NCBI GenBank assembly: GCA_021159365.1
Contig: JAGGRY010000020.1
Coordinates: 1 to 43,434 of the forward strand
Direction of reading: 5' to 3'
Origin: Nitrososphaerota archaeon
Lineage (GTDB): Archaea; Thermoproteota; Nitrososphaeria_A; Caldarchaeales; Wolframiiraptoraceae
DNA: 43,434 nucleotides
In this document: piece by piece, positions 1 to 41,085 of the stretch
Layout: each line of letters starts with the position of its first letter
How positions within the stretch are numbered: the stretch's first letter is position 1
The notes under the pieces: generated by a model
Databases searched by the model: none
Told to the model about the DNA's origin: nothing
Seen by the model: only the letters and a program-made list of their open reading frames with translations
Program-made: the position numbers and the translations under genes

Positions 1-553
1 TGCGGAGAAATTTTCTCGTCTTTGGATCTAATGGATAGCCTGAACCGAAGTCTCCGAAAAATGATTTCAACTCGTCGACCAATTCATCCCTTTTGGTCTT
101 TGCCAGAATCGATGCAGCCGAGACTACTGGATACTTTTCATCGGCCTTATGTTCAAGGATGAGCTGGCATCTCACCTTCAACATGTTCCTAATCAAAGAC
201 TCGAAGCTCCCTCTATTTCTTGAGGGTAGATCTATGTAAGCTATATCCGGCTTTAGATCATTTATTATTCGTGAGAAGATCTCCGCCTCAAGCTTATTCA
301 ATCCCATCGCTCCCCGCCTCTTGGTGGATTTGTCGACGGTCTCCGCGTCAACGATCACGAGCTTAACCGATTCAGCTATCTCCTTGATCTCGTCTGAGAG
401 TTTAAACCTCTTCTCTGGGGTGAGCTTCTTCGAGTCTTTGACTCCGAGATCTTCCAATCTCCAAATCTCTTTTTCATCTATTAAGATTCCCGCTACAACC
501 ATGGGGCCTATGACAGATCCTCTTCCAGCTTCATCTATTCCGCAAATCCTCAA
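1..553 (-). CDS. rnhB: Ribonuclease HII (3'-truncated at window edge), probable TTG start
   Basis: Minus-strand translation from a TTG at 553-551 gives LRICGIDEAGRGSVIGPMVVAGILIDEKEIWRLEDLGVKDSKKLTPEKR...MGLNKLEAEIFSRIINDLKPDIAYIDLPS, with the RNase HII motifs GIDEAGRGSVIGPMVV and DSKKL. Absent from the ORF track, probably because it runs off the window. Confidence 0.93.
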   Translation of the reverse strand, partial: MRICGIDEAGRGSVIGPMVVAGILIDEKEIWRLEDLGVKDSKKLTPEKRFKLSDEIKEIAESVKLVIVDAETVDKSTKRRGAMGLNKLEAEIFSRIINDLKPDIAYIDLPSRNRGSFESLIRNMLKVRCQLILEHKADEKYPVVSAASILAKTKRDELVDELKSFFGDFGSGYPLDPKTRKFLR

Positions 554-27645: not shown

Positions 27646-28169
27646 GAATAAGAATTCTCTCCGAACTACATGATTCAGGAGCTCTCGAAAAGGTTGCCGA
27701 GGCGTTAAGAGAGATTTATGGAGAAGAGGTGAAGGTGGAGTTCGTAGATAAATTATTCGATGAAAAGTTCCTGAACTCTTCAAGAGGGCAGCATAATGCA
27801 TGGCTAATAGTTCAAAATTATAAGCATGTTAGAGCCGATGACGAATACTTGCTTCTGATCACTCTTGAAGATCTATACGCCGCCGGCCTAAACTATATCT
27901 TTGGATTGGCATGGCAAGGAGTTGCAATAGTCTCAACCCATAGACTTACCCAAGAATTCTACGGATTAAAGCCTGATCGAGAATTGTTCATCGAGAGACT
28001 TGTTAAGGAAGCTGTTCATGAGATCGGACACCTACATGGATTAACTCATTGTCCGGATAAGAGATGTGTCATGGCCTTCAGCAACTGGATAGGCGATACA
28101 GATTATAAGTCATATAGACTTTGCAGTAGATGTGAGAGGAAGCTTAAATTATTGAAATCTAAGACTTGA
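27642..28169 (+). CDS. amzA: Archaemetzincin family zinc metalloprotease
   Basis: EAVHEIGHLHGLTHCPDKRCVMAFSN (HExxHxxGxxHC) followed by CSRCERKL. Confidence 0.94.
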   Translation: MRIRILSELHDSGALEKVAEALREIYGEEVKVEFVDKLFDEKFLNSSRGQHNAWLIVQNYKHVRADDEYLLLITLEDLYAAGLNYIFGLAWQGVAIVSTHRLTQEFYGLKPDRELFIERLVKEAVHEIGHLHGLTHCPDKRCVMAFSNWIGDTDYKSYRLCSRCERKLKLLKSKT

Positions 28170-28629
28170 TCACAAACTCGCTCGAACCCTGTTCTCCCTC
28201 AGCCTTTTCGGCGAGTTGACTTAAAACCTTCTTCACCACTGATTTTGAAAGGACTCCTGCTTCGATCAAGTTCACTATCGAGTTCGGTGAAGCTTCTCCT
28301 GAAACCTTCCCGATATTTCCCCTAACCTGCCTCCAGATTAGATGCGTGTTCCCACTCTTAGATCTATAAATGATCCCCAAAACTTCCAAGGCCTTAATGA
28401 ATCTAATGTTCCTTATAGTTCCTAGATCGAGCTTGGAGACCGCCTCGACATAGATCCTTCCCTCAGAAGCATCTCTCTCCGGGAATATAGTTGGGTCGTT
28501 CAGATAGCCTTTAGGTATGAAGGAGAAGCATGTATTGAGGATCAAGAAGCGGCGAAATCGCTCGAGGGTCGTCCTAACCTCTATCCTCACCACCAGCCCA
28601 ACACCGCCCTTCCTCGAACAAAACTCCAA
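28159..28629 (-). CDS. Conserved hypothetical protein
   Basis: 156-aa ORF, convergent with amzA, with coding-like composition. No family recognised. Confidence 0.55.
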   Translation of the reverse strand: MEFCSRKGGVGLVVRIEVRTTLERFRRFLILNTCFSFIPKGYLNDPTIFPERDASEGRIYVEAVSKLDLGTIRNIRFIKALEVLGIIYRSKSGNTHLIWRQVRGNIGKVSGEASPNSIVNLIEAGVLSKSVVKKVLSQLAEKAEGEQGSSEFVIKS

Positions 28630-28828: not shown

Positions 28829-30589
28829 ATGGGCATAGAGGGCAAGACCGCTGCTGAGCTCCTAGGCAGAGGTGGAGTTAGACGTACCTATATTCGAGAG
28901 GTGATCTTGGAGAACTTCATGAGCCATGAGTATTCGAGAATCCCCTTAAAGCCTGGGATGAATCTGATAACAGGGCCCAATGGAGCTGGGAAATCCTCGA
29001 TTCTCCTCGGAATAGCCGTGGCCTTGGGCCAAACCTACACGGATAGAAGTGAGAGGCTCAGCGATCTAATTAGAAGAGGTGAGAAGGCCGCTAGAGTCAC
29101 GGTAATCTTCGATAATATGGAGGTCGATGGAAAGAGGCCGATACCGTGGCTGAGTTCAGATCAGTTGGTCATAACTAGATATCTGAAGAGGAGTGGAGAC
29201 TACTGGCATTACGTGAACAATAGACTTAAGACGAAGGCGGAGGTCGAACATCTACTGCAGAGGCTTGGAATAAACCCGAACAACATGCTGATAATAATGC
29301 ATCAAAACATGATCGAGCAATTCGCGGCGAAGAGCGACGTCGAGAAGCTTAAGATGGTCGAAGACGCGGTTGGAGCATCCCATTTCAGAAGGAGAATAAT
29401 CGAGGCGGAGGCTAAGCTTAGAGATATTCAAGCTCAGGAGAAGAGCCTAAAGAGATCTCTGCAAGAAGCGAGGGCGGCCGTCGAGTATTGGAGAGAGGAA
29501 TACGAGAAATTATTGGCGAAGAAGAAGCTTGAAGATGAGAGGAAGAGGCTTGAACTCGAATATGCTTGGGCATTAGTCTCTGAAGTTGAGTCCTCGATCA
29601 AGAGAATTCAAGAGAGAATTGAAGGATTGAAGATTAAGGCGAATAAGCTCTCAGCTGAAGCAGATTACCATGAAGCTGAGGCGATTAAACTTCGCTCAGA
29701 GCTTCTGAACATGTTTTCAAGAATAGCTGATGGAGAGCATGTAAGCATTCAAGAGTTCGAGAAGAATCTCGATCTGTTACTTGATGAAAAAGTTGAAGCC
29801 GAAATCTCAAAGTTTAAGTTAAGATTAAATGAGTCCGAGATCAGGAGGCTTCAATCCGAGCTTAAGAGGCTTGAATCAGATTTAGCCGAAAAGAGAAGAA
29901 ACGCGGTCGCGCTTGGAGAAAGAGTTGAGACGAGGGAGAAGCCTCAGGACATACTTGAAGAGATCAAGGTGATAAACCTCAAGATAGCCTCGCTTGGAGA
30001 GGTCTTGGAAGAAGCCGAAGATATGTATCTAGTCGCTGACTCAAGGTATCGCGAAACGGAGATAAGATCTAAGGAAGTTGAGGAAAATCTACGCAAAGCT
30101 CTCGAAGAGGTTGAGTATAGGAAGGAACTTTGGAGAAAATTCCTAAGAGATTTGATGAGAGAGGTTGAACCACAATTCAATTCGATCCTTTCAACGGTTG
30201 AGGGAGCCGGTAGAATCGTGTTAAAGAATCTCGAAGATCCGGAGAAAGCTAGCATAGAACTCTATGTGGGATTTAGGGGAACAGAGCCCATGCTCCTAAA
30301 CGCCCATACCCACAGCGGAGGCGAGAGGATCGTTGGAACCCTTGCATTCCTCCTAGCCCTCCAGAAACATGTTAAGTCTCCATTTAGAGCAGTTGATGAA
30401 TTCGATGTCCACTTGGATCCACTTAACAGGGAGAGGATGATGAAGCTCTTAATCTCGACGGCTGAGAGTGAGGCGAGCACACAATATATCATAATAACTC
30501 CTGGAAGATTTCCGGTTGAAGGAGATGTTAACGTGCTGCTGGTTCAAAACGTTGGCGGGAGATCCGTAATAGGGAGGTATGGTGAATGA
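28829..30589 (+). CDS. Short SMC-family ATPase with Smc5/6-like head
   Basis: YIREVILENFMSHEYSRIPLKPGMNLITGPNGAGKSSILLGIAVALG (Walker A). HSGGERIVGTLAFLLALQKHVKSPFRAVDEFDVHLDPLNRERMMKLL (signature plus Walker B). STQYIIITPGRF. Central coiled coil with no Rad50 CxxC hook. Confidence 0.93.
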   Translation: MGIEGKTAAELLGRGGVRRTYIREVILENFMSHEYSRIPLKPGMNLITGPNGAGKSSILLGIAVALGQTYTDRSERLSDLIRRGEKAARVTVIFDNMEVDGKRPIPWLSSDQLVITRYLKRSGDYWHYVNNRLKTKAEVEHLLQRLGINPNNMLIIMHQNMIEQFAAKSDVEKLKMVEDAVGASHFRRRIIEAEAKLRDIQAQEKSLKRSLQEARAAVEYWREEYEKLLAKKKLEDERKRLELEYAWALVSEVESSIKRIQERIEGLKIKANKLSAEADYHEAEAIKLRSELLNMFSRIADGEHVSIQEFEKNLDLLLDEKVEAEISKFKLRLNESEIRRLQSELKRLESDLAEKRRNAVALGERVETREKPQDILEEIKVINLKIASLGEVLEEAEDMYLVADSRYRETEIRSKEVEENLRKALEEVEYRKELWRKFLRDLMREVEPQFNSILSTVEGAGRIVLKNLEDPEKASIELYVGFRGTEPMLLNAHTHSGGERIVGTLAFLLALQKHVKSPFRAVDEFDVHLDPLNRERMMKLLISTAESEASTQYIIITPGRFPVEGDVNVLLVQNVGGRSVIGRYGE

Positions 30590-31344
30590 GGAGGATCGAG
30601 GTCACTAGGGAAGAGCTTGAGCGAATAATCAAATTATGCGAGAACATCGAGAAGAGAGGATTAGATCCATTCACAGTAAATATTCGAGAATTGTTGGAGA
30701 AGCTTAGAAGAATCGTTGAGGAGAATCCAAACCTAGATCATTATATAATCGATGCTGAAACCCTCTATAGGATCTCAGCCTTAATCGCCCTCCAACATAA
30801 ATGGCTTAGAGAGAAGGCGAAGGCATTATTCATCGATGCTCAGATGATCTCGACCAGGCTCGTGGCCATGGATAAGAAGATGCTTGTCAAGGCTTTCTTG
30901 AAGGCTTGGCATCCAATAATCTCACTTGAGCAAATAACCCCTCAAAGACTTAGACAAGGATTAGAGCACTTCCTCTCACTTCCACCTAGAAGTGGGAGCA
31001 GAGAGTTTGGCTGGAAGATAACCGATAAGGAGATGAAGTTGGCTAAAGCGAGACTTGAGCTTGAGGAGAAGGCGATGATGGAGAAGATCAAGGCTCTCCA
31101 TCGAGAATTACTTAGGAGATTCGAAGAACAGGGAGGAGCGTTAGATTATTGGGAATTCATCAAGGGAAAGAATTTCGATGAAACATTTGAGCGCGCATAT
31201 CTCTTAAGCTTCCTAATAACCGAGGGATATGTTGACGTTAAGAGAAATCCGTTAAAGAATGAGGTAAAGCTCATACCACACAAAGAGCAAGTTAAGCGAA
31301 AATCTCCAACTTCTCTCGTCATAAGTTTAAGAGGTGAGATTTAA
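30586..31344 (+). CDS. Candidate kleisin (ScpA-like) subunit
   Basis: ATGA overlap with the SMC gene. EKRGLDPFTVNIRELLEKLRRIVEENPNLDHYIIDAETLYRISALIALQHKWLREKAKALF resembles the ScpA N-terminal domain. C-terminal winged-helix-like segment ETFERAYLLSFLITEGYVDVKRNPLKNEVKLIP. Confidence 0.7.
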   Translation: MRRIEVTREELERIIKLCENIEKRGLDPFTVNIRELLEKLRRIVEENPNLDHYIIDAETLYRISALIALQHKWLREKAKALFIDAQMISTRLVAMDKKMLVKAFLKAWHPIISLEQITPQRLRQGLEHFLSLPPRSGSREFGWKITDKEMKLAKARLELEEKAMMEKIKALHRELLRRFEEQGGALDYWEFIKGKNFDETFERAYLLSFLITEGYVDVKRNPLKNEVKLIPHKEQVKRKSPTSLVISLRGEI

Positions 31345-31904
31345 TGAGCGGAGAAGAGAGCTTTTCGAGGAGATTGATGATCGCGGCGACAATGCTTCTA
31401 TTCAAGAGCCATCGAAGACCTGGAGTTAGGGGCTGGGAGCTGAAGCATAGGCTCGGAAAGAATTACATGAGAGTTATCGATGCCCTAAACTCCAGGCTTA
31501 AGCAACTCGGCTTAGAAATCAAGACCGTTTTCGAGGAAGGTGAAGAAAATAACCTTGATAGAGCGAGATTCTACGTGGTCTTATCACATCCATTGACCAT
31601 GTCCGATTTAGTCGCAGCCGGATGGAGAATAGATGAAGTCGCAGCTCTCTCCATAACCCTCTCAATTCTATCAAGCAGAGGTGGTAAAGCCCCGTTAAGA
31701 GACGTCTTAGAGGTCTTGGAGACGAAGTTCCCTAAGTGGAAGGCTGAAACCTATCTCGAAAGAGCGATTAGAAGAGGATACATCGAGAGGCTTGAAGACG
31801 ATGTATTAACAATAGGCTGGAGAACGAAGGTGGAAGTCGAGCAAAAGGCCCTATTGAAGGCGGTCCTAGAAGCACGCGAAGAAAAAGAAATAAGATCGGA
31901 TTAG
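31344..31904 (+). CDS. Candidate KITE (ScpB/Nse3-like) tandem winged-helix subunit
   Basis: TAATG overlap with the upstream gene. Two WH-like segments: GWELKHRLGKNYMRVIDALNSRLKQLGLEIKTVFEEG..ARFYVVL and AALSITLSILSSRGGKAPLRDVLEVLETKF..YLERAIRRGYIERLEDDVLTIGW. Confidence 0.62.
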   Translation: MSGEESFSRRLMIAATMLLFKSHRRPGVRGWELKHRLGKNYMRVIDALNSRLKQLGLEIKTVFEEGEENNLDRARFYVVLSHPLTMSDLVAAGWRIDEVAALSITLSILSSRGGKAPLRDVLEVLETKFPKWKAETYLERAIRRGYIERLEDDVLTIGWRTKVEVEQKALLKAVLEAREEKEIRSD

Positions 31905-35605: not shown

Positions 35606-37957
35606 ATGTGGAAGACGCCTCTTGCGGTGATGATGATATCGCTTCTATGCCTAACGATGTTAACGATTAAGAATGATCCAGCATTAGATGAACCGATAAA
35701 GTTTAAGAGAGTTTTGGTGGAGTTCGACAGAAGAGTTGACTTAACCCAATTTCTCGGAGATCTTGAGATAAGCGGGGTCGCCGGTGATTTGGCATCTGTG
35801 AAGATTCGTGATAATCTGCTGGAGAAGCTGATTAAAGATGGAGTGATAAAATCCGTTTGGAAACCTAGAAAATATCATTTGACGCTTGACGTCAGTGTCC
35901 CCGAAGTCCACGCGCCGGAGATTTGGGATGGTTTTAGAGACGTGATAGGAGGACAAGTCAATGGATCGGGAGTCGTGATAGGAATAATAGATACGGGGAT
36001 AGATTATAGGCATCCCGATTTTTGGTTTCCAAATGGCTCCACGAAGATTCTAAGCATCTGGGATCAGACAATAGATGGAAAACCTCCAAGAGGATTCAAG
36101 TATGGATACGAGTGCTCGAGGTGGGAGATAGAGGCTATGAAATGTCCGGAGAGAGATGAGACGGGTCACGGAACTCACGTGGCCTCGATAGCCGCTGGAA
36201 CGGGACTCGCATCATATAAAGGAGTTGCACCTGGAGCCTACCTCATAGTGGTTAAGACGGGCTACCCCGTATGCGGGGGACTTAAGTGGTTTATGGAGGA
36301 GGATAAGATACTGGATGGGATCTCCTATATCGTTGAGAAGGCGAGAGAACTCGGATTAAGACCCATAATAAATCTAAGCCTCGGATCGGATAATGGAGGC
36401 CATGATGGACACACCCCGCTTGAGAAGGTCATAGATGAGCTCACAGATGAGGGCGTGATCTTCGTCGTGGCCGCCGGAAACTCGGCTTCCGATCAAATAC
36501 ACTCGATGGGAGACTTAGCTATTACAGGCGAAGTTGAGGTTAAGTGGGTTCTTCAGCCGGCCACCAAGGAGTTAGATCTTTCTTATGTCACCGAGCCCGA
36601 TGACGAAGTTAGATTTAGCCTTAAAACACCTTATGGGACCATTGAAGGAAAAGAGGTTGAGAATTACAGAATTGGAAACTTGGTCGTCAACATCACCTTA
36701 AATTACTATGATTCTGGAAGAGACTGGGAAATAACGGTGAGAAGTGTTGAGGGAGATCTCTCAACCCATGGATGGGCGATGATGATTGAGCCCATCAAGT
36801 TAAATGGAACGGCGGTCTGGCATAGCTGGATAAGCAGCGATACATGCTCCTTCTCAAGGGAGAGATTCATAGCTGGGAATGGATACAATATAACTGAGAG
36901 CTATACGGTCACGGTTCCAGCGACAGCGAAAAAGGCGATAGCGGTTGGAGGATACGTCTCGAAGAGTTCATGGTATATGGATGGAAAATTGGTCTCATCC
37001 GGACTTAAGCTGGGAAGACTTCTACACTTTAGTGGAAGAGGGCCTAGCAGAGATGGAAGGATAAAACCAGATCTAGCTGCACCTGGCTCTGTGATAGTTG
37101 CGGCCAAACCAATCGAGAACTTCTCTTCAAGTATGAATTTCAGCGACTATTATACTGCTAGACATGGAACTAGTATGGCAGCCCCACACGTCACTGGAGT
37201 GATAGCATTAATGCTTCAACTATTTCCAAACGCATCATTCGATCAAATTTACAATGCCTTAACCTACTCAGCTCGATGGGAGGATTTCATGGGTAAGAGG
37301 CCGTCAAATGATTGGGGTTGGGGAAAACTCGACGCGAGAACAATCTACAAGCTTAGGGTTGAGGTTTTAGGGCTATCTGAAAACTCGTTTACGGAGGCCT
37401 CAATAGATGGTCTACAATTCAAGGTATCCTTAAAGAATCCGCTGACCATACCATTCCTCAATAACTCAGAGCACATACTCATAGCTCAGAAAGAGATCCC
37501 GATAAGCAGCTTAAGCATGTATCGATTAGAGACGGGTAATAAGTTCGTCATAAACAAGTCAATGAACATCATCTTAAGATACAATGTTTGGCATTATCTT
37601 GACGTTAAGTCACCATTTGGAGGAACCGAAGGGAGCGGATGGTATAGAGAAGGTGAGGAGGTATGGTTCTTCGCTCCCAGATCTATAACCCCGCCGATAT
37701 ATGATCTCTTATTCAAACCAGTTTTGAGATTAAGCTATTGGATCACTGAAGATGGAAGAAAACTTTATCATCCGAGGATCTTGATGGATAAGCCTCACAC
37801 GGTAACGGCAATCTATACTCCTGACTATGGCATAATGGTCTTCTCGTGGCTTACCATAGCGGTAGGATCATCTGCGATAACCATAATACTTAGAAGGCAT
37901 TATCAAAGAGTTCGGAGAGGAGTTGAGGGAGGCAAAATATCTGGTCAAGGTTCATGA
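35606..37957 (+). CDS. Subtilisin-like (S8) serine protease, secreted and membrane-anchored
   Basis: GVVIGIIDTGIDYRHPDF, DETGHGTHVASIAAG, RHGTSMAAPHVTGVIALMLQ. N-terminal signal sequence and C-terminal TM. Confidence 0.95.
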   Translation: MWKTPLAVMMISLLCLTMLTIKNDPALDEPIKFKRVLVEFDRRVDLTQFLGDLEISGVAGDLASVKIRDNLLEKLIKDGVIKSVWKPRKYHLTLDVSVPEVHAPEIWDGFRDVIGGQVNGSGVVIGIIDTGIDYRHPDFWFPNGSTKILSIWDQTIDGKPPRGFKYGYECSRWEIEAMKCPERDETGHGTHVASIAAGTGLASYKGVAPGAYLIVVKTGYPVCGGLKWFMEEDKILDGISYIVEKARELGLRPIINLSLGSDNGGHDGHTPLEKVIDELTDEGVIFVVAAGNSASDQIHSMGDLAITGEVEVKWVLQPATKELDLSYVTEPDDEVRFSLKTPYGTIEGKEVENYRIGNLVVNITLNYYDSGRDWEITVRSVEGDLSTHGWAMMIEPIKLNGTAVWHSWISSDTCSFSRERFIAGNGYNITESYTVTVPATAKKAIAVGGYVSKSSWYMDGKLVSSGLKLGRLLHFSGRGPSRDGRIKPDLAAPGSVIVAAKPIENFSSSMNFSDYYTARHGTSMAAPHVTGVIALMLQLFPNASFDQIYNALTYSARWEDFMGKRPSNDWGWGKLDARTIYKLRVEVLGLSENSFTEASIDGLQFKVSLKNPLTIPFLNNSEHILIAQKEIPISSLSMYRLETGNKFVINKSMNIILRYNVWHYLDVKSPFGGTEGSGWYREGEEVWFFAPRSITPPIYDLLFKPVLRLSYWITEDGRKLYHPRILMDKPHTVTAIYTPDYGIMVFSWLTIAVGSSAITIILRRHYQRVRRGVEGGKISGQGS

Positions 37958-38197: not shown

Positions 38198-40306
38198 ATG
38201 ATGGGAGCTGATGCTCCGATGCTTAGAGATAGTAGACTGACGAAGACTGTGAATAAACTGTTTTCCGAGAAGATGGTTCTCCTAGAGACGTCGATCATGT
38301 TCATGATTCTCACGATAGGTTTTCTCATCAGAATCTTTCCATTGAGATGGGGACTCTACCTAACAGAGTTCGATCCATGGATGCAATACAAGGAGTTCAT
38401 GTATATCGTTAGGAATGGATGGATGGGTTTCATAAAATTCTTCTCATGGCATGACATGACTTCATGGTATCCATTTGGAAGAAATGTCGGCAAAACAGCG
38501 TTCCCAGGCCTGCCATTTTTCGCCGCCTTCATCTACCACTCCTTACATGGCCTTGGAATAGAATTGAATCCACTTGAATTAGCGGCATTCATTCCACCGA
38601 CGTTATCAATAGTTGCTATAATCTTCGCATATCTCCTAGGAAAAGAGCTTGGCGGGAAACCAGCAGGATTATTCTCCGCATTTCTACTAGCCTTAAGCAG
38701 AGCGCATGTCGAGAGAAGCTTGCTCGGATGGTTCGACGACGAATGTATTGGAATTCCCTTGATGCTGATCGGAATCTGGGCATATATTCAGGCGATAAAG
38801 GATGAAAGATCTTGGAAGGAGTCGATGGCGTATGCGATCGTTTCGGGCTTCGCCCTAGGTTATCTCTCGGCGAGCTGGGGAGCGGCCAAATTCCCATTAA
38901 CGTATCTTCCCCTGATAACCGTGATCCTAGCTCTACTAGGCAGATATAGGAGGAGACTATTAACGTCATTTGCGGTAACATTCATCATTTATGCCATAAT
39001 ATCCATCATGGTTCCAAAGCTTGGAATAAGATATCTATTCGAGACAACGCTCCTCTCAGGATTCGCTGCACTCATAATCCTAGCCTCTTTCGAACTTTCG
39101 CAAACGCTTCCAGGAGGGAAACATGTAAAGAGGCTTCCATACTATATCATCGGCGCCGGAGTCGTTGGCTTCATAGCTCTAATAATTCTTGGCCTAGCAA
39201 ATCTTCCTGGATTAAAGTTCTTCAGCGTGGTCATCCCAACCCTTAGATCGAAGCTTCCGATAGTGATCTCAGTGGCCGAGAATCAAATCTCGACTTGGGC
39301 TATAATGTTCTCGGATGCGGGATTCCAGCTACTCCTAGCATTACTTGGATTCTACTACGCCTTGAGACGGAGGACGGATGAAGATCTGATCTTAAGCGGG
39401 TATGCTATACTGACGATATATTTCTCCTCGACGATGGTTAGGCTATCGACCATAATGGCTCCGATGGTCGCCGTGATGGCGGGTTTCGGTGTAGCGGAGA
39501 TCATAAGCAGTTTTTCGAGAAATCTTAAGCTCTTAACGCGTATGAAGGCTAGAGTTAAGCCCATAAGCCTCGAATATTATATCTTAACACCTCTCGTGAT
39601 CATCGGCCTACTTACAGTAAACTTTATTCCAAGCGCTTATGGATTCAGATATTCAATATCGGCAATAGATTCCGCGTATACTCCTCAAACCATAGTCTCT
39701 GCGAGCACTCCGCTGAGGATGAAGCTCGATGCATGGCTTAAGGCTCTTGAATGGATGAGGAATAATCTTCCAGAGAACGCGGTTGTGGCATGCTGGTGGG
39801 ACTATGGATACTGGGTCACGATCTTGGGCAATAGGACGAGCATAATTGACAACGCGACTCTAAACTCAACTCAAATCGGCGAGATAGCGTATGCCTTCAT
39901 GTCCAATGAAACCGTGGCTTACAGGGTCTTCAAGAAGCTAGGCGCAACCCACGTCCTAGTCTTCGTCACCCATATTGTACAATCTCAAGTTGGCGGCGCG
40001 ACGATAATGAGGCTCTGGACTTATGGCGATGAAGTCAAATGGATCTGGATGCTTAGAATAGCAAATCAAGAAGGATATCACTTTAATGAAAGTGAATATG
40101 TAACCGAACGTGGAGTACCGACTGAGAAATTCTGGTATGGGACGACCATAGGTCAACTAATACCATATAAGCCCACCACGACAGCAGGTGGAATCACATC
40201 CGATGTTTATCAGCCTCCAGATCTAAAACACTTTAAGCTCGTCTATCAATCGAGTCCACCATACAGCAGCTATGCATATGTTTACATCTACGAGATAGTT
40301 GATTAA
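38198..40306 (+). CDS. aglB: STT3/AglB oligosaccharyltransferase
   Basis: Multi-TM, EFDPWMQYKEF, SLLGWFDDECIGIP, VACWWDYGYWVTILGNRTSIIDNATLN. Confidence 0.95.
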   Translation: MMGADAPMLRDSRLTKTVNKLFSEKMVLLETSIMFMILTIGFLIRIFPLRWGLYLTEFDPWMQYKEFMYIVRNGWMGFIKFFSWHDMTSWYPFGRNVGKTAFPGLPFFAAFIYHSLHGLGIELNPLELAAFIPPTLSIVAIIFAYLLGKELGGKPAGLFSAFLLALSRAHVERSLLGWFDDECIGIPLMLIGIWAYIQAIKDERSWKESMAYAIVSGFALGYLSASWGAAKFPLTYLPLITVILALLGRYRRRLLTSFAVTFIIYAIISIMVPKLGIRYLFETTLLSGFAALIILASFELSQTLPGGKHVKRLPYYIIGAGVVGFIALIILGLANLPGLKFFSVVIPTLRSKLPIVISVAENQISTWAIMFSDAGFQLLLALLGFYYALRRRTDEDLILSGYAILTIYFSSTMVRLSTIMAPMVAVMAGFGVAEIISSFSRNLKLLTRMKARVKPISLEYYILTPLVIIGLLTVNFIPSAYGFRYSISAIDSAYTPQTIVSASTPLRMKLDAWLKALEWMRNNLPENAVVACWWDYGYWVTILGNRTSIIDNATLNSTQIGEIAYAFMSNETVAYRVFKKLGATHVLVFVTHIVQSQVGGATIMRLWTYGDEVKWIWMLRIANQEGYHFNESEYVTERGVPTEKFWYGTTIGQLIPYKPTTTAGGITSDVYQPPDLKHFKLVYQSSPPYSSYAYVYIYEIVD

Positions 40307-41085
40307 CCTATGTAGAACGGCTCTCTACTCGGTCTTCCCTTCTGTTTCTGAAGCATCTGTTCATATCCTCTCTGAACCTCTTCCAAGATCTTCCTATGCT
40401 TCTCTATCTCCTCGTCCAGTTGCTCAAGATCTACGCTGAACCCCAAGCCTTTCGCTAAGACTGTTATCAGCATCTTCGCAGAGATCGGGTCTGGGAAATA
40501 GGTTACGACCTCTGATACTAGAATGCATGCATGACCGGTGTCCTTCATATAGAGCATGAGCAGATAGGAGGAGAGTCTATCGGCTGGAATATTATCTAGA
40601 TTTGAGAGCATCCTAGCCCCAGAGTTTAAGAATCCTCTCATATCATCTGGATTAGATGAGGCAACGAAGACCGCTCTCTCACCCGTTATCCTAGAGCTCG
40701 ACAGAAGATAGTAGTTCACCGCTCCTCTCTCAACTAAGAACTTGTGAAGCTTACTGGCGATCAAATATCCGCCTTCCTCGCTTTCTATCGGGAAGTTTCT
40801 GGAGATGAAGACGAGCTTTAAGTCGCCATCTCTATGCAGATATAGGCTTATGCTTGGATGAGAAGCTAGTCCTTCATCGACTATGCTGACGTGAGGGAAG
40901 TGAAGAGATTTAACCTCAGCTATCTTGGCGGGCTTAAGGGTCTCAACCAGATAGTTTATGGCGATCAAGCCGGCCGCTCCCAAGCTTGGAGACGCCTCGA
41001 TCACATGCGCTCCCCTTAAATCGGCGCGCTCGCCGGCCTCGGTCAAGACTATCTCAACATCACCTCGATCCACGGGCTTTCCCAA
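40303..41085 (-). CDS. PAC2-family (proteasome assembly chaperone-like) protein
   Basis: VIEASPSLGAAGLIAINYLVETLKPAKIAEVKSLHFPHVSIVDEG...GAVNYYLLSSSRITG. Downstream of Nop10 and aIF2-alpha. Confidence 0.88.
   Translation of the reverse strand: MGKPVDRGDVEIVLTEAGERADLRGAHVIEASPSLGAAGLIAINYLVETLKPAKIAEVKSLHFPHVSIVDEGLASHPSISLYLHRDGDLKLVFISRNFPIESEEGGYLIASKLHKFLVERGAVNYYLLSSSRITGERAVFVASSNPDDMRGFLNSGARMLSNLDNIPADRLSSYLLMLYMKDTGHACILVSEVVTYFPDPISAKMLITVLAKGLGFSVDLEQLDEEIEKHRKILEEVQRGYEQMLQKQKGRPSREPFYIG

Follow-up and report, generated by a model that had tools for sequence, protein, structure and literature searches.

To our knowledge, Smc5/6 is the least understood among the eukaryotic SMC complexes and the sole one that retains kites. 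Hinges are present in canonical SMCs as well as in eukaryotic Smc5/6. For the yeast Smc5/6 complex, it has been shown that the heads, the necks, Nse4 and the Nse1-3 kites clamp one DNA duplex. Here, Nse4 contacts the neck of Smc6 with its N-terminal domain, and its C-terminal winged helix lies below the head of Smc5 (PMC9191643); the hinge and the distal arms lie outside this clamp. In archaeal Smc-ScpA, a kite is generally absent (PMC7055376). Archaeal 'SMC5/6-related' SMCs, which form a clade with Smc5 and Smc6, have been described (Yoshinaga and Inagaki, 2021) and were reused in PMC9389158; the available passages of the latter on this clade mention neither hinge status nor an operon, kleisin or kite partners. 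A further study, cited in PMC13142630 and PMC12629237, follows SMC complexes from their archaeal ancestors into eukaryotes (Van Hooff et al., 2025, Cell Rep 44:115855). In the searchable literature, to whose scope Yoshinaga and Inagaki (2021) and Van Hooff et al. (2025) do not belong, no description of a hinge-less SMC-kleisin-kite complex was found.

Here, such a locus was analyzed in the window, by which we mean the whole stretch of 43,434 nucleotides from a Nitrososphaerota archaeon, placed in the Caldarchaeales (Aigarchaeota) by its nearest relatives; its genome comprises 1.25 Mb in 58 contigs. Positions 28829-31904 would encode a minimal Smc5/6-type complex, consisting of one hinge-less, probably homodimeric SMC, an Nse4-type kleisin and a single unsplit kite, which together would act as an ATP-gated DNA clamp. 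This reading is proposed with good confidence, since the head phylogeny, the Nse4-type kleisin, the Nse1/Nse3 kite and the co-occurrence of the three genes in the same genomes all point to a three-subunit complex of the Smc5/6 type. Archaeal SMC5/6-related proteins are already known and the three-gene hinge-less form is a variant of these; the SMC of the window very probably belongs to the group of Yoshinaga and Inagaki. The features are listed in Table 1.

Table 1. Features of the SMC-kleisin-kite operon in the window and examples of the Lhr-family neighbor in other loci.
Feature	Residues	Position	Strand	Basis
Smc5/6-related, hinge-less SMC ATPase (586 aa)		28829..30589	+	ORF; PDB profile search, best to Smc6/Smc5; head phylogeny
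SMC N-head	20-183	28886..29377	+	Alignment, AF2 model, motif counts
Walker A GPNGAGKS, in N-head	49-56			
Q-loop MHQ, in N-head	157-159			
N-terminal coil, one unbroken helix	184-300	29378..29728	+	AF2, conservation
Coil tip, short turn where a hinge or hook would be	301-306	29729..29746	+	AF2, SMC_hinge negative
C-terminal coil, breaks at 363-371 and 389-395 (joint)	307-455	29747..30193	+	AF2
SMC C-head: SGGER signature, FRAVDEFDVHLDP (Walker B/D-loop), QYIIITPG	456-586	30194..30586	+	Alignment, AF2, PDB profile
Nse4-type kleisin (252 aa)		30586..31344	+	Pfam Nse4_C, PDB profile
Nse4_C winged-helix segment of the kleisin	191-232	31156..31281	+	E 0.0014 for the window member alone
Kite, undifferentiated Nse1/Nse3 (MAGE-type tandem winged helix, 186 aa)		31344..31904	+	Pfam, Foldseek
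Lhr-family helicase, examples (30 further loci)		L020:9548-12409	-	
		L047:9232-12123	-	

The first gene of the operon is a complete SMC-superfamily ATPase with intact ATPase motifs, which is matched by Pfam SMC_N at 2.4e-34. The open reading frame and the motifs quoted for it in an earlier note on this DNA were found as described, and the motifs are conserved: 27 orthologues keep the Walker A GPNGxGKS, SGGE[RK], FRAVDEFDVH[LM]DP and the ITPG segment by alignment and motif counts, and the forms carried by the SMC of the window are those given in Table 1.

A profile built from the 27 orthologues was run against all PDB chains. The ten best chains were all Smc5 or Smc6 (190-224 bits), with Smc6 (224.0 bits) and Smc5 (221.8 bits) level at the top and the human proteins at 214 bits (Smc6) and 190 bits (Smc5). 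Below these followed archaeal Smc (187.9 bits), Smc2 (170), Smc1 (135), Smc3 (about 120-128) and Rad50 (under 60). For the canonical SMC of the same genome, a separate gene of 1147 aa used as control, the ranking was reversed (Smc 341, Smc2 154, Smc1 144, Smc5 54 and Smc6 30 bits). The two halves of the orthologue profile prefer different paralogues, since the N-terminal half favors yeast Smc6 (139.8 vs. 110.7 bits for Smc5) and the C-terminal half yeast Smc5 (113.8 vs. 87.0 bits for Smc6), with the totals tied at 222-224 bits. At the level of these profiles, the mixture of Smc5-like and Smc6-like motifs that had been noticed earlier by eye is more than chance.

The head phylogeny suggested in the earlier note was calculated from 65 sequences and 319 columns under LG+F+R5 (supports given as SH-aLRT/UFBoot), with PMSF LG+C10 as second model. 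It contains the 27 archaeal orthologues, yeast and human Smc5 and Smc6 (two sequences each, from PDB alignments), canonical archaeal and bacterial SMCs, Rad50-like proteins and one ASRP; Smc1-4 and Asgard SMCs were left out. The archaeal orthologues form a group of their own (98.4/98 under LG+F+R5, 97/98 under PMSF LG+C10), which falls together with Smc5 and Smc6 at 99.8/100 and 99.7/100, respectively. Judged from these trees, the membership of the head in the Smc5/6 lineage is firm.

Placement of the head within canonical SMCs (AU 0.014) or within Rad50/ASRP (AU 0.007) was rejected, and these were the placements that would have spoken against the earlier proposal. The protein does not reach the canonical models either (TIGR02169 203 vs. 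a cut-off of 729 bits, TIGR02168 150 vs. 567). Here, the phylogeny is the stronger test, because the genome's own canonical SMC also misses TIGR02169 (530 vs. 729). The ABC head with coil and joint is common to the SMC of the window and to archaeal canonical Smc-ScpA; the canonical protein is about 1150 aa long and hinged, in contrast to the hinge-less protein of 586 aa described here.

The claim that the protein is not a Rad50 likewise holds. A CxxC motif is lacking, and a zinc hook is absent because the whole translation contains no cysteine. That the SMC is an archaea-specific SMC-related protein (ASRP: ClsN/Sph) or a Rad50 derivative and resembles Smc5/6 by motif only is therefore extremely improbable. 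Its length is near the 593 positions of the ASRP model and both the ASRP and the Rad50 model match it, but it reaches only 67.9 bits with NF045487 against a cut-off of 300, compared to 380 for a true ASRP used as control (L152), and it is accompanied by Nse4 and kite partners. ASRP (ClsN, Sph) and Rad50/arcadin-4 have in common with it that they are short and carry ATPase halves at both ends of the coil; in contrast, ASRP and Rad50 have no kleisin or kite, mostly possess a zinc hook and take another position in the tree.

Within the Smc5/6 lineage, the full-head trees pair Smc5 with Smc6 and leave the archaeal SMC outside (85.6/96 under LG+F+R5, 56.4/93 under PMSF LG+C10). On these trees, a pre-duplication state of the head, sister to the Smc5+Smc6 pair, is favored. 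Alternatively, the SMC could be a reduced post-duplication derivative of an Smc6-like (or Smc5-like) ancestor, of which the partner SMC, the hinge and the distal arms were lost. This would fit to the tree of the C-head only, where the archaeal SMC stands beside Smc6 (77.5/98), and to the AU test, which keeps a grouping with Smc6 alone (p = 0.26) as well as with Smc5 alone (p = 0.36); the tree of the N-head only does not resolve the placement, and neither single-head tree is strong or consistent enough to choose between a sister of both paralogues and a sister of one. Nevertheless, such a derivation from one paralogue seems unlikely in view of the full-head trees, of the halves favoring different paralogues with tied totals, and of a kite that matches both Nse1 and Nse3, as is expected before duplication. 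The either/or of the earlier note, a pre-duplication state or a reduced derivative, thus divides between the parts of the protein: the head fits the former, with the groupings with Smc5 or Smc6 alone unrejected, and the arm and tip look reduced, since the whole archaeal clade is without hinge compared to the hinged canonical SMCs and eukaryotic Smc5/6.

This reduction is visible in the AF2 model of the SMC monomer (pLDDT 86.6). Helices are predicted for residues 184-300, 307-362, 372-388 and 396-455, followed by the C-head, and the coil reverses in the turn 301-306. These limits are close to those drawn earlier by inspection (residues 190 and 450 vs. 184 and 455). Also the argument that a hinge would find no room is borne out by the six-residue turn, by Pfam SMC_hinge matching none of the 27 orthologues and by the coil nature of the distal part; neither a hinge nor a hook, either of which would have contradicted the earlier note, is predicted. 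As controls, the archaeal SMCs L135 and L151 are matched by SMC_hinge. The Pfam test is supportive and not decisive, because the genome's own canonical SMC is also unmatched. In orthologues of greater length, up to 680 aa, neither Pfam nor composition revealed a concealed hinge. Together, AF2, Pfam and the alignment agree and show an SMC that is predicted to possess neither hinge nor zinc hook.

The joint region of the N-terminal coil holds the invariant W221 and W247, the latter shared with human SMC5, human SMC6 and yeast Smc6 but absent in yeast Smc5. Across the 27 orthologues, the head-to-joint segments always measure 64 and 86 residues. Beyond the joint, the distal segment ranges from 116 to 217 residues, is a coil low in Gly/Pro in every orthologue and represents the most poorly conserved part, with residues 281-310 around the tip as the least conserved stretch of the SMC and residues ~311-345 moderately conserved. 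The best fold match of the model is 5xei, an engineered and crystallized head-coil-joint construct of P. yayanosii Smc; the hinge-less SMC would be a natural version of the fragment that crystallographers cut out.

It is conceivable that the ends of the helical hairpins form a small four-helix contact replacing the hinge, which would yield a closed SMC ring that may extrude loops. The arms are kept, residues ~311-345 following the tip are moderately conserved, and the AF2 model is monomeric, so dimer contacts are compatible with it. On the contrary, the tip itself is the least conserved stretch, the length of the distal segment varies while those of head, neck and joint are fixed, and no domain or metal-binding motif is common to the tips. 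We consider this dimerization via the tip rather doubtful, and return to an SMC without a hinge substitute. Its simplest history is a loss of the hinge, because canonical SMCs and eukaryotic Smc5/6 possess hinges. We infer that this loss probably took place in the archaeal branch, and the single SMC and single kite look like ancestral traits that were kept.

The genes downstream, an Nse4-type and an Nse1/3-type gene missed by the earlier note, are stronger evidence than the motifs of the SMC. The three reading frames run into each other, with 4 nt shared by the SMC stop and the kleisin start and 1 nt shared by the kleisin stop and the kite start. Nse4_C was found by Pfam in 16 of 26 kleisin orthologues (best 5.3e-6); the kleisin of the window alone reaches 19.3 bits, which is below the Pfam cut-off of 26. 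With a kleisin profile, only Nse4 chains were significant among PDB entries (yeast 1.3e-5, human EID3/NSE4 1.9e-5), and no ScpA-family match is listed by Pfam for the orthologues. In a separate search with the N-terminal half, the N-domain of an archaeal ScpA ranks third at 0.087, a weak likeness that would be expected of a kleisin but is suggestive at most; two spike fusion cores, chance coiled-coil matches, outrank it.

For the kite family, Pfam revealed MAGE in 8 of 25 members (best 2e-5) and SMC_Nse1 in 6 of 25 (best 6.5e-4), and no Pfam match for the window member alone. The identity of kleisin and kite rests on the family, since the members of the window singly fall below the Pfam cut-offs. 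With the AF2 model of the kite (pLDDT 89.7), the sole Foldseek matches below 0.001 were human NSE1 (8.4e-6), MAGE-G1 (1e-5) and an Nse3 chain (3.6e-4), and MukE is a weak fold match. No RING was matched on the kite; the protein stops past the second winged helix plus one helix. A further kite copy or paralogue was not found elsewhere in the genome. From profiles and model, the kite looks like a single subunit prior to the split into Nse1 and Nse3. The Nse2 SUMO ligase and the Nse5/6 loader subunits are not encoded within the operon.

A weaker, second Nse4_C-like protein of 226-285 aa is present elsewhere in several genomes, mostly of one family (G258:C11:16340-16570, G215:C2:3999-4238, G227:C28:50718-50936 and G060:C13:17039-17263). 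It may represent the canonical kleisin ScpA or else a paralogue.

Almost every locus retrieved shows the genes in the order SMC-kleisin-kite; the loci stem from Caldarchaeales, Hadesarchaea, Bathyarchaeota, Geothermarchaeota, Methanodesulfokora and others. Among 240 evenly drawn Thermoproteota genomes of at least 90% completeness, 97 possess the SMC, 97 the kleisin and 95 the kite (~40%), and these are essentially the same genomes; the mismatches noticed are G111 with a partial SMC only and G142 with a marginal kleisin match only. A kleisin match was obtained in 22 of 28 genomes from the group holding the Hadesarchaeal loci. Also in genomes with a broken operon (e.g., G023, G049 and G245), SMC, kleisin and kite remain within a region of about 12 kb. 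In the genomes searched, the Smc5/6-type SMC occurs once per genome that carries it, and the genome studied here possesses it in addition to one canonical SMC. The conserved order, the co-occurrence and the proximity in broken operons are strong evidence that SMC, kleisin and kite would form one functional unit.

A Lhr-family SF2 helicase of ~950 aa is convergent with the SMC operon in 32 of 56 loci, which belong to several orders. The 3' ends usually overlap or abut, with overlaps of few to 46 bp; being convergent, the helicase gene is not co-transcribed with the SMC operon. In the genome studied here, the Lhr orthologue lies on another contig (G000:C11:23914-26754), and it is displaced also in the close relatives. 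Replication-fork structures are given as preferred targets of archaeal Lhr in PMC7437997. The linkage points, indirectly, to replication-coupled repair. A role of the complex in the protection or repair of stalled replication forks or of recombination intermediates, alongside the Lhr-type helicase, is likely.

An open reading frame of 156 aa without family match (28159-28629, minus strand) directly precedes the SMC operon in divergent orientation; a related minus-strand family occupies a similar position in seven Caldarchaeales loci. Downstream in the window, a subtilisin-like (S8) protease (35606-37957, +), an STT3-type oligosaccharyltransferase (38198-40306, +) and a protein of the proteasome-assembly-chaperone family (40303-41085, -) are encoded, which are ordinary neighbors.

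An anti-plasmid or anti-virus system has also to be considered, since restriction of extrachromosomal DNA is a function of human Smc5/6, and since Wadjet, too, is built from SMC, kleisin and kite (PMC10586767). The operon could then be a dedicated defense system like Wadjet or Lamassu and not serve housekeeping repair. However, PADLOC gave no match for kleisin or kite and only a weak one for the SMC, with no more than 30.9 bits to JetC and no JetA/B match for kleisin or kite, and the operon contains no JetD-like gene. Further, the distribution is clade-consistent, as the SMC was found at some level in 60 of 61 relatives searched and in every Caldarchaeales family, and the neighborhood with housekeeping genes is stable, unlike that of mobile defense systems. 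A dedicated defense function is therefore very unlikely. Wadjet JetABCD and MukBEF resemble the archaeal operon as prokaryotic SMC-kleisin-kite complexes, whereas JetC and MukB are long, hinged and possess distant heads.

With eukaryotic Smc5/6, the proposed complex has in common the head phylogeny, the Nse4-type kleisin, the MAGE/Nse1-type kite and the SMC-kleisin-kite logic. It differs by a single SMC and a single kite, where eukaryotes have two of each, by short arms and by the lack of RING and hinge. It is the closest prokaryotic relative of eukaryotic Smc5/6 found in the present analysis.

The archaeal operon supplies counterparts to every part of the yeast Smc5/6 clamp. A homodimeric clamp is expected, because these counterparts are present and the hinge and arms lie outside the clamp. 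Mechanistically, the two SMC heads of the homodimer would meet around two ATPs. The kleisin would bridge them, with its C-terminal winged helix capping one head and its N-terminal helical domain bound to the neck of the second head. The top would be closed by two kites that sit as a dimer on the kleisin, so that one DNA duplex would be held as in eukaryotic Smc5/6, and hydrolysis would open the clamp. Lacking a hinge, the SMC dimer would depend for its cohesion solely on heads, kleisin and kites, or on weak contacts of the coils. Since the hinge is absent, an ATP-gated clamp or junction stabilizer is expected and not a hinge-dependent, long-step loop extruder. Whether a natural SMC-kleisin-kite complex works hinge-free as an ATP-gated DNA clamp and at the same time displays the single-SMC, single-kite make-up of the Smc5/6 ancestor is, in our estimate, an even call.

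If true, the hinge and long arms would be dispensable for at least one SMC function. A one-SMC, one-kite archaeal complex may further show Smc5/6 before its parts were duplicated and would thereby be a direct model of the pre-duplication state. It becomes testable whether Smc5/6 passed from archaea to eukaryotes already complete, as a complex of three parts, whether a single kite gave rise to both Nse1 and Nse3, and whether DNA clamping, or even loop extrusion, can be performed by an SMC complex without hinge. With subunits of 586, 252 and 186 aa from thermophiles, the complex is attractive for cryo-EM and single-molecule work.

Short SMC-superfamily proteins were also observed outside this operon. 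The same genome encodes a Rad50-like protein of 654 aa (L119, G000:C10:426-2387) with a single CxxC hook near its middle, which scores far below the Rad50 and ASRP cut-offs and is another unusual short member. The canonical SMCs of Hadesarchaea (L132, L133 and L134) have 753-773 aa, with the central part of TIGR02169 apparently skipped; L132 has no SMC_hinge match, possibly a second, independent hinge loss. Strongly shortened arms are also seen in the canonical-lineage SMCs L135 (Methanodesulfokora, 764 aa) and L136 (758 aa), and L135 carries a clear SMC_hinge at residues 312-417.
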